A stretch of 52,623 bases of DNA. Origin: Candidatus Altimarinota bacterium. Its GTDB lineage: Bacteria; Patescibacteriota; Gracilibacteria; BD1-5; UBA6164. Within the stretch, counting starts at the first letter, position 1; each line of letters begins with the position of its first letter. Of the stretch, positions 17,488-20,757 are shown one piece after another. The translations under genes were made by a program, and so were the position numbers. The DNA lies in assembly GCA_028713225.1 (NCBI GenBank), contig JAQTOS010000008.1, positions 1 to 52,623 on the forward strand. The letters are read 5' to 3'. The notes beneath the pieces are model-generated. The model was not told where the DNA came from. It searched no databases and worked only from the letters and a program-made list of their open reading frames with translations.

Positions 17488-19260
17488 TTATAATCTTCTT
17501 GTTTTTATTTCTGCAGCTATTTTTTCTATGAAATTTTCTACTTTTTCAGTTAATTGTTCTTTAGTTTTTACATTTCTAACAGAAACTGTATTATCAGCTA
17601 CTTCTTGTTCTCAAACTATTAGCACATAATTATATTTTGAAGTTTCAGCATTTCTTACTTTTTTATTCAAACTATCTGTTGAGTAATCAACTGTAGATCT
17701 AATATCAAGAGCTTTTAATTTTTGATTTAAAGCTTTAGCATAATCGTCAAATTTATCAGCAACAGGAACTATGATTACTTGTCTTGGAGATAACCAAGTA
17801 GGGAATAGTCCAGCAAAATGTTCTATAATAATTCAAATAAATCTTTCTAAACTTCCAGAAATTGCTCTATGAATTACAACTGGTCTTTCTGGATTTCATT
17901 CTTCATTTGTAAAACTTAAATTAAATCTTTCTGGTAGGTTGAAATCACATTGAATTGTAGCAAGTTGCCATTCTCTTCCTAGACAATCTTTGAACATAAA
18001 ATCTAGTTTTGGTCCATAAAATGCTGCTTCTCAAGGCATTCTTTTATATGGTAGGCCATTTGCAATAGCAGCTTCTTCAAGTGCTCATTCAGCTTTTGCC
18101 CAAACTTCATCACTTCACAAATATTTTGATTTGTCTTCGACATCTCTAACAGAAAGTGAAACCCAATAAGAATCAAGCATTCCCATTGTTTCATAGAATT
18201 TTTTGATGATATCAGTTATAAGTTTTACTTCGTCTTTGATTTGTCCAACTCTACAAAATAAATGTCAGTCATCTTGAGTAATAGATCTAACTCTAGTAAG
18301 TCCAGATAATTGTCCAGTTTTTTCATCTCTATAAACTGTTGCAGGTTCAAAATATCTAACAGGCATATCTCTGTAAGAAAATTGATTATCAGCAAATATT
18401 TGCATATGATGAGGACAGTTCATAGGTTTTAGGTGGAATTTTTCTTTTGAAGTTCATCCATAAACAGAAAACATATCTTCTAAATAATGACCAGCATGAC
18501 CACTCGTTACATATAAATCTTCTTTAGCTAAATGAGGAGTACAAACTCTATCATATCAATGATTTTTATGTAAATCCCATAAATAATTTTCAAGTTCTTT
18601 TCTAATTGCCATTCAAGCTGGTTGGAAAAGAGGTAACCCGGCTCAAACTAAATCTGAAATTGTAAATAATTTTAGTTTTTTACCAAGAACTCTATGATCT
18701 CTTTTTTTAGCTTCTTCCATCATTCTTACATGATTATCTAATTCTTCTCTAGTATCAAAAGCAAGTCCATAAATTCTTGTAAGCATTTTTTTTCGTGAAT
18801 CTCATCTCCAATAAGCTCCAGCAATTTTATCTAATTTGAATGCATTTTCATCAATTTGAGACATTTTTTCTACATGAGGACCAGCACACATGTCTTCGAA
18901 AGCTAATTCACCTTTTTGACTCATATTTTTATAAAAACCAAGAGATGTTTCTCCTTTTTCTTTCAAATCTTTAGCCATTTCAACTTTGTAGATTTCTCCA
19001 GCAGTTTCTAATTTTTTAATAGCTTCATCAACTGGAAGTGGTGCGTATTCAAAAATTTGATTTTGTTTGATGATATTTTTCATCTTTTTTTCTATTTCTT
19101 TTAGATTTTCTTCTTTTACTTCAGTTTCACCAAAATCAAAATCATAATAAAATCCAGTATCAGTATCAGGTCAAATTGCCATTTTAACTTCAGGGTAAAT
19201 GCTTTTTACAGCTTGTGCCATAATATGGCTCAGAGAATGTCTTTTTGTTGAGATTTCCAT
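17488..19260 (-). CDS. thrS: Threonyl-tRNA synthetase lacking the TGS domain
   Basis: 590 residues. Charges tRNA-Thr with threonine in the cytosol. It starts directly in the editing-domain region ([19 protein letters not shown], the HxxxH motif), so the usual N-terminal TGS domain of about 60 residues is missing. Then come the second additional domain (MCAGPHV), AYWRGDS...MLTRIYG, the class II core with [11 protein letters not shown], the zinc ligand segment [10 protein letters not shown], motif 2 around [10 protein letters not shown] and motif 3 [18 protein letters not shown], and the anticodon-binding domain ([10 protein letters not shown]) to the end. A leader-peptide attenuator lies upstream (19353-19500), predicting induction when charged tRNA-Thr falls. 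ATG 19260 is the only ATG before the HxxxH motif. Confidence 0.95.
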
Positions 19261-19283: not shown

Positions 19284-19348
19284 AAGCTCCCCCTTAGTCC
19301 CCCTCGAGTGAGGGGGAAAGCGAAGAATAAAGCTGCGGGGGAGTTTTT
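19284..19348. repeat. GC-rich nested inverted repeat
   Basis: CTCCCCC...GGGGGAG as outer arms with CCCCCTC-GAGT-GAGGGGG as inner hairpin. It is strikingly GC-rich for this genome and sits between the attenuator terminator and the thrS start. It resembles small MITE-like or hairpin intergenic repeats; another one lies at 30336-30430. Confidence 0.65.
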
Positions 19349-19352
19349 TAAA

Positions 19353-19382
19353 TAAAAAAAATCTTCTATTTCTAGAAGATTT
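19353..19382 (-). terminator. Attenuator terminator in the thrS leader
   Basis: On the minus strand AATCTTCTA-GAAA-TAGAAGATT followed by eight T, about 90 bases before the thrS ATG and with no other gene to terminate. Its 5' arm (ATCTTCTAGA) is duplicated at the end of the leader peptide gene (19427-19436), allowing an alternative fold. Confidence 0.8.
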
Positions 19383-19427
19383 TGAAAAAGGGCTAAAGCG
19401 AAGCACAATACAAAAATCTGTCTAGTG

Positions 19428-19475
19428 TCTAGAAGATATTCGTTGTAGTGGTTACAAGTTGTGCTAGGCTCATCA
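19428..19475 (-). CDS. thrS leader peptide MMSLAQLVTTTTNIF
   Basis: A 15-codon gene ending TAG, too short for usual gene calling. Codons 9-12 are ACC, ACT, ACA and ACG: four consecutive threonines using each Thr codon once. AAAAGGA lies three bases before the first ATG and six before the second, so Met2 may be the true start (14 residues). Leader peptides of this kind (ThrL, PheM, TrpL) have no function as protein; their translation measures supply of the charged tRNA. The stop codon is inside the segment that duplicates the terminator arm, as needed for attenuation. The gene it would control is thrS, which consumes threonine and makes that same charged tRNA. Confidence 0.78.
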
Positions 19476-19507
19476 TACGTCCTTTTGTTATGATTTAATG
19501 TCAGTAG

Positions 19508-19534
19508 TGTATAAAAAAAAATCTATATGTCAAA
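19508..19534 (-). promoter_or_regulatory. Candidate promoter of the thrS leader transcript
   Basis: On the minus strand TTGACA (19534-19529) and TATACA (19513-19508) with 15 bases between, placing a start near 19500, shortly before the leader ribosome site. It overlaps the hairpin that ends the neighbouring gene. Confidence 0.45.
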
Positions 19535-19560
19535 ATTTATTTTGACATATAGATTTTTAC
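19511..19560 (-). terminator. Terminator of the 406-residue hypothetical gene
   Basis: AAATCTATATGTCAAAAT and its mirror ATTTTGACATATAGATTT with T-runs; contains the stop codon (19537) of the minus-strand gene. Confidence 0.8.
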
Positions 19561-20757
19561 AGCTTCAACTAAGGGGGTTAAAACATTGTCTTCATATAGC
19601 ATAATAATATCTGGATTTATTTGATTTTGTTTTTTTAGTAACAAATCTCTTTGATTTTGCACGTAATCTCTAGACCTTTGTATTCTTGCTTTTGGCTCGA
19701 TTTTCTTTTGTAGATCTGCTGGAATATGTCATATCATACTTCTGATTAAGCTATTATAAAAACCAAGTCACTTAGAAGTTCATGAATTTAAAATATTGAG
19801 TAATTTTTTAATTAGGGTATTTATTATAATATTTTCTCCAGCTAAATCTTTTTGAACTAATTTTATAGAAAAATTTGATAATTCATTTATATCTAGTCAA
19901 GATTCTTTTATTGTTCTGTTATGTTTTAATATTTCAGAAAGTTTTTTAGAAAAATTTCATTTAGTAAAAAAAGGATTACTTGGTATAGATGTTAATATAG
20001 AATCAGATCATAAAGAAGTAGCTGATTTTTTTAGAAAATTTCTTAAATCATCTTTTGTAGGGAATACTTTTTTTTCTAAATTATCTAAATCTATTTTAAC
20101 TTTCATATTAGATTTAGAAATTTTTATATCAGCATCTATGTTTCTAGGAATAATTATATTTGTTTGCTCTCAAAAAATTGATTTTAAAGTTTCATAAATT
20201 ATTTGCCTTTTTTTTGTATCAAAAGATTCTTTATTTTTTGAAAATTCTCATGCAAAACAAGCAAAATTAGAAATTTCATCTATTTCATTTATAATTTCTT
20301 TATGTTTTGAAGCTTCGATTTTATCTGTATTTGGAGTGATGATTTTTTTGATTTTACCTTTTACTAAGGCTCAAATTGCTTTATAGTAATTTGTTCTAAC
20401 GATAAGTGATTCTTTGATATTTTTTTCTCAAGTTTTTGTTTTTATAGTTTTATCATTTATAAACATAAAAACAATATCTTCTCTTTTTAGTTCTTTATCA
20501 ATTATATTTTTCATCAAATAATCTAAAACTATTTCTTTTTTTTCTATATCATTATTTGCAATTAAAAAAAGCTTGTGAGATAATTCTGGAGAAAAAAATC
20601 AATATTTCATTTTATTTTCATCATATAATCAGTCTTTTTTTAGTCACTTAAATAAAGAATCAAGATCTATTATTGCTTGTCCTTCTTTTGTAAGTGGATT
20701 TACTTCATATGATTCACCAGTTTCTAAATCATGATATTTCTTCTCAGGATTAGTCAT
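19537..20757 (-). CDS. Hypothetical protein, 406 residues
   Basis: Intact when TGA is Gly. No signal peptide and no membrane segment; Lys/Asn/Ile-rich and mostly helical. The N-terminus (MTNPEKKYHDLETGESYEVNP) is hydrophilic. Around residues 40-110 there is a helical repeat-like region (FFSPELSHKLFLIAN; KEIVLDYLMKNIIDKEL). Near residue 330 IRSMIGHIPADLQKKIEPKAR, and the C-terminus has RDYVQNQRDLLLKKQNQIN. I do not recognise a family. It is transcribed toward the thrS leader but closed by its own terminator, and lies downstream of the PBP gene's terminator, so it seems to be its own unit. Confidence 0.65.

Follow-up and report, generated by a model that had tools for sequence, protein, structure and literature searches.

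A probable threonine leader-peptide attenuator upstream of thrS in Candidatus Gracilibacteria

The threonyl-tRNA synthetase gene (thrS) of the window, by which we mean the whole 52,623-nt stretch of DNA analysed (contig C3 of a 1.24-Mb Candidatus Gracilibacteria genome), is very probably under the control of a classical ribosome-mediated transcription attenuator, whose Thr leader peptide would switch the gene on when charged tRNA-Thr runs short. The component parts, their conservation, the covariation of an antiterminator (2:3) and of a second helix (P1), and the geometry of the leader can all be read from the sequence. Gracilibacteria are ultra-small, largely uncultured bacteria that read UGA as glycine. 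Classical attenuation is known best from the Proteobacteria and Actinobacteria and in some instances from bacilli, and thrS is usually regarded as T-box- or self-regulated. The mechanism itself has precedents; what is new here is the lineage, the conservation across the class, the exchange with T-boxes and the occurrence of UGA sense codons in some of the leaders. Classical attenuation would thereby be extended to a class of the candidate phyla radiation with a recoded UGA.

The thrS locus and its leader

The threonyl-tRNA synthetase (ThrRS) of the window shares 89% identity with that of isolate STF1_204, and its closest named relatives are Candidatus Gracilibacteria MAGs. The gene contains 13 in-frame TGA codons and therefore code 25 (TGA = Gly) applies to the genome. 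The features of the locus are as follows.

17488-19260, minus strand: thrS, threonyl-tRNA synthetase, 590 aa under TGA = Gly (TIGR00418, 618 bits, E 5e-186)
19354-19383, minus strand: intrinsic terminator, 11-bp stem with a GAAA loop (hairpin 19383-19358, U-tract 19361-19354)
19372-19384, minus strand: region 3, CAAAAUCUUCUAG, 5′ arm of the terminator and partner of region 2
19402-19408, minus strand: 3′ arm of P1, TTGTGCT
19411-19425, minus strand: region 2, putative antiterminator strand, CUAGACAGAUUUUUG
19429-19437, minus strand: AUCUUCUAG, duplicate of the terminator 5′ arm at the leader stop
19429-19476, minus strand: leader ORF, (M)MSLAQLVTTTTNIF, with ATG at 19476, an alternative ATG at 19473 and the stop TAG at 19431-19429
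19441-19452, minus strand: regulatory Thr codons, ACC ACT ACA ACG
19459-19465, minus strand: 5′ arm of P1, AGCACAA (region 1), in the leader codons preceding the Thr run
19480-19486, minus strand: Shine-Dalgarno sequence of the leader ORF, AAAAGGA
19506-19533, minus strand: sigma-70-like promoter, TTGACA-16-TACACT (motif)
19517-19558, minus strand: terminator of the preceding gene
19537-20757, minus strand: gene preceding the thrS leader, on the same strand

The minus-strand ribosome site, the short ORF with its Thr run and the terminator 45 nt past the leader stop are all in place, as described in an original prediction made from the sequence of the window. That prediction also gave the leader 15 codons. 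The ORF is present, but the second ATG (19473) aligns with the start used in a same-genus relative, and a length of 14 codons is therefore at least as likely. The leader transcript would be expected to start near position 19499. Promoter-like motifs were found upstream of 37 of the 54 leaders compared below, against 7% of shuffles. The −35 hexamer of the window's promoter (19528-19533) falls within the 3′ arm of the terminator of the upstream gene, so that terminator and promoter have bases in common.

The folding energy of the leader segment is −36.5 kcal/mol (z = −5.0 against shuffles). The 1.24-Mb genome has 3,160 intergenic short-ORF starts, of which just 5 (4 distinct ORFs) encode at least four Thr in eight residues; the thrS leader is the one of these ahead of thrS. 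Moreover, among the roughly 60 listed of 1,029 short ORFs found before terminators near gene starts, it is the only Thr-rich ORF with a Shine-Dalgarno sequence. The scan of the window's own genome revealed no convincing second homopolymeric leader before a terminator, and the ORFs upstream of hisS contain no His run.

Between the attenuator and thrS lies a GC-rich hairpin (19287-19343, CCCCCTCACTCGAGGGGG...AAGGGGGAG), which the same-genus relative does not have. CCCCCT...AGGGGG stretches resembling it are found at the equivalent spot in several relatives (L025, L057). The hairpin was considered as a dispersed repeat, and this was rejected as it is present in a single copy in its own genome.

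Conservation and covariation across the class

A leader ORF ahead of thrS, proposed from the window alone, recurs in related genomes. At order level 77 genomes were searched, giving thrS upstream regions from the family (44) and from a sister family (21). In the same-genus relative (genome G001, locus L005) the leader MDLAQLVTTTTTIF occupies the equivalent place and the same terminator follows it; both can be aligned closely with their counterparts in the window, whilst the flanks have diverged. A Thr-rich leader and a terminator were found ahead of thrS in 31/44 regions of the family and 7/21 of the sister family, with no recognisable leader in 13/44 and 14/21 respectively. Loss, a thrS gene that has moved or missed detection may explain why roughly one third of the family has no leader. 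Elsewhere in the class, at least 16 further loci carry a Thr-rich leader and terminator, the longest Thr example being MNKITTTTTTTTCHIW; families f138, f5, f6, f8 and f134 have leaders such as MNKITTTTTTTTCHIW, MRVLRMTTTTTTTD, MKHIHSTTTTTTTTTIV, MHRPLTTTATTTTSV and MHIRLNTTTTTTARRVV. Conservation of the intrinsic terminator (3:4), located between leader ORF and gene, extends to 54 loci.

Order-level leaders typically follow the pattern M-x-L-A-Q-L-(V/E)-T-(Thr-rich). Thr accounts for 163 of their 597 residues (27%), against 5.7% genome-wide; some leaders are poor in Thr, with 1-2 residues each (L024, L020, L071). An in-frame TGA is found ahead of the Thr run in L053, L071 and L215. In these three leaders a ribosome gets to the run only by decoding TGA as Gly, which argues for their translation in the recoded code. 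Leaders of this kind, with UGA sense codons ahead of the Thr run, would be natural reporters of recoded decoding.

All four Thr codons are present in the window's leader, as the original prediction had emphasised, but the monitoring of four isoacceptors is unlikely. A single tRNA-Thr, with anticodon UGU, was identified by ARAGORN in the window's own genome (97% complete) and also in G064, a complete single-contig genome of the family in which all 34 tRNA matches were covered. Moreover, the mix of Thr codons differs between leaders. With one tRNA-Thr only, the four codons probably report a single tRNA pool, and this would offer a simple test of codon choice setting the sensitivity of an attenuator. 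ACC makes up 2% of Thr codons genome-wide, yet it is the first Thr codon in 23/38 leaders. Slow decoding or RNA pairing could possibly account for this preference. At first sight the preference resembles a slow-codon signal, but in several relatives ACC is also able to pair with the GG in region 2. The window's genome contains 33 tRNAs, with one U34 tRNA each for Thr, Ala, Val, Pro and Gly (for Gly, besides a UCA tRNA for TGA), which suggests superwobble decoding of these boxes.

At the leader stop, AUCUUCUAGA is indeed a copy of the terminator 5′ arm, and the antiterminator was originally placed here, with UUCUAGA pairing with UCUAGAA of the arm. The complementarity exists in the window. However, this duplex amounts to −3.6 kcal/mol in the window and to −0.1 kcal/mol in the same-genus relative, whose stop region has the sequence UCUUCUAAUAA; the Thr run is kept in relatives, but the pairing of the stop-region duplicate is not conserved in the genus. 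The sequences point instead to region 2 (19425-19411), just after the leader stop, as the actual antiterminator, with the terminator 5′ arm (19384-19372) as its partner. The corresponding duplex, CUAGA(C)AGAUUUUUG with CAAAAUCUUCUAG, reaches −9.3 kcal/mol in the window and −8.4 kcal/mol in the same-genus relative. We therefore consider it very unlikely that UUCUAGA is itself the antiterminator.

Pairing equivalent to the 2:3 helix of the window is kept in about 50 loci. When compared with dinucleotide shuffles of region 2, it was significant at p < 0.05 in 28/38 loci and at p < 0.01 in 21/38. The window's own duplex is marginal in this comparison (p = 0.07), and the antiterminator of its genus is weaker than in most relatives. 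Cognate arms outperformed swapped arms across the 54 loci by a mean of 4.7 kcal/mol (z = −13.7, 0/20,000 permutations); since these loci are mutually related, the permutation count should not be taken as a strict probability, although the result holds in each of two divergent groups (z = −9.7 for 38 order-level loci, z = −6.8 for 16 class-level loci). Covariation of the arms, to which the original prediction had looked, is thus seen at 2:3 and supports a mutually exclusive antiterminator. A second pairing proposed from the window, in which AGCACAA and TTGTGCT bridge leader and spacer, also proved to be a covarying helix. This helix, P1, joins leader codons to the sequence 3′ of region 2 and covaries across relatives (z = −5.6, 0/20,000 permutations). 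In several relatives P1 is extended into region 2 (AACC:GG), which makes it a true 1:2 helix.

Geometry, proposed mechanism and alternatives

The median start of the 2:3 helix lies 28 nt past the first Thr codon, 13 nt past the last one and 2 nt ahead of the stop codon, a placement that fits the needs of a ribosome-operated switch. The stalled state was modelled by masking a ribosome footprint at the second Thr codon. In these folds 2:3 forms before arm 4 has been made in 49/53 loci, against 22% with a shuffled region 2. For the full-length window RNA with a ribosome stalled on Thr, the values were 0.94 for 2:3 and 0.05 for 3:4. With a ribosome at the stop codon, or with none, 3:4 rose to 0.96, where the stop-codon state masks region 2 by construction and so that half of the test is not independent. 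In the model the stop codon is positioned such that a terminating ribosome would cover region 2 and a stalled one would not. The polarity originally proposed, with a Thr stall turning thrS on and completion of the peptide turning it off, agrees with the antitermination obtained in the Thr-stalled folds.

In the window the terminator hairpin on its own (about −10 kcal/mol) is at least as stable as 2:3 (−7 to −9 kcal/mol), and antitermination would therefore depend on co-transcriptional order together with pairing between AUCUUCU and arm 4. In the stalled full-length fold AUCUUCU, which is beside the leader stop, base-pairs with arm 4 and so reinforces antitermination, which is probably what the duplication is for. 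In folds of the off state the duplicated arm itself is paired to the beginning of region 2, and in those of the on state to the terminator 3′ arm.

From these features we infer a transcription start, stalling, pausing at P1, termination and read-through in the following scheme. RNA polymerase would transcribe the leader ORF, and regions 1 and 2 could then pair (P1 plus an inner AUCUUCUAG:CUAGACAGAU helix). When charged tRNA-Thr is plentiful, a ribosome at the stop codon would cover the start of region 2, leaving region 3 free for region 4, and transcription would stop upstream of thrS. When charged tRNA-Thr is scarce, the ribosome would stall on ACC ACU ACA ACG, opening P1 and freeing region 2. 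Region 2 would then capture region 3, the terminator could not form and thrS would be transcribed. Should no translation take place, 1:2 pairing would keep the terminator on.

The L-A-Q-L motif at the N-terminus is near-invariant in the family's leaders. A broader account can be envisaged in which attenuation of thrS by a leader is old and class-wide, is exchanged with T-boxes between families and operates in cells where one tRNA-Thr (UGU) decodes every Thr codon, with L-A-Q-L providing nascent-chain or RNA-level sensing beyond the counting of codons; taken as a whole, we regard this account as doubtful.

In E. coli, thrS is autoregulated by ThrRS, which binds a tRNA-Thr-like leader RNA. With this precedent in mind, the leader RNA of the window could mimic tRNA-Thr and be bound by ThrRS, the ORF being incidental. 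The sequence CUUGUAA, which exactly matches the anticodon loop in the genome's own tRNA-Thr(UGU), is found in 18/38 order-level leaders (19459-19450 in the window). However, 20/38 leaders do not contain it, GAA/GAT variants change U36, and no anticodon-like stem is visible around it. Moreover, leaders elsewhere in the class lack CUUGUAA yet keep their Thr runs and the 2:3 and 3:4 helices, and binding by ThrRS is not needed for regulation through a conserved terminator. Autoregulation by ThrRS therefore has little chance of being correct. Mimicry of the tRNA anticodon by CUUGUAA was judged to be mostly coincidental.

A spurious Thr-rich ORF that by chance precedes an ordinary terminator, the two being unconnected in regulation, would fit the shortness of the ORF and its absence from several family members. 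Conservation in the genus and across the class ahead of the cognate gene, covariation and geometry all stand against chance, which is extremely improbable.

T-box exchange and known systems

T-boxes are absent from the window's own genome and from the sampled members of its family and of family f138. In other families of the class, matches to the T-box lie directly upstream of thrS: G363:C53 (f132), G370:C31 (f139), G407:C11 and G416:C26 (f137) and G283:C9 (f11), all below the Rfam curated cut-off (E 1e-10 to 2e-5). The sequences thus indicate that sister families use different RNA sensors, leader or T-box, for thrS. Within a single class, thrS would clearly illustrate how two RNA sensors that respond to tRNA-Thr charging can replace each other. 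The two share an input (tRNA-Thr charging) and an output (antitermination before thrS), but the T-box senses the tRNA directly and has no leader peptide. On L133, a contig labelled Vogelbacteria, a T-box-like core, GGTGGAACCGCG, was recognised by eye upstream of thrS.

With T-boxes on thrS in these other families, a degenerate T-box in the window's lineage might be envisaged. However, there is no Rfam match in the window at gathering score; neither a stem I with specifier nor a T-box antiterminator was found at its leader, even below threshold; and T-box matches number zero in its own genome and all sampled family members. A degenerate T-box thus has next to no likelihood. Rfam Thr_leader gave no match in the window, even at a relaxed threshold, and Phe_leader was far sub-threshold (21 bits of a cut-off of 55, E 0.26).

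The proposed Thr attenuator most resembles known leader-peptide systems in its logic. The E. coli pheST operon (pheM) has a cognate-rich leader peptide before a synthetase operon, an intrinsic terminator and an alternative antiterminator, but it concerns Phe rather than Thr, is unrelated in sequence and belongs to the gammaproteobacteria. The E. coli thr operon (thrL) shares the Thr codons in the leader peptide and the termination/antitermination logic, but what it governs is Thr biosynthesis, and it responds to Ile as well as Thr. Among synthetase genes, pheST, trpS and leuS have known or predicted classical attenuators, those of trpS and leuS being in Streptomyces (PMC1262725). In bacilli, hisS*/hisZ have His leaders, and hisS likewise exchanges T-box and leader (PMC2965389). 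These cases also represent leader-peptide attenuation of synthetase or paralogous genes, but for other amino acids and in other phyla. The only thrS precedent found is thrL-thrS of Streptomyces lividans, a Thr-containing leader ORF upstream of thrS. As given in the available part of that report, the proposed leader has two Thr codons only and a leaderless start, and termination is 'not clear'; the system is actinobacterial, and the same part presents no comparative support (PMC8079986). No leader-peptide attenuator from the candidate phyla radiation was found in the literature searched, which comprised journals other than subscription journals.

A SAM-I riboswitch was detected on another contig of the same genome (C10; L304:3292-3394, minus strand; Rfam RF00162, 44.8 bits, barely above gathering). 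It is followed by a terminator and lies upstream of metK.
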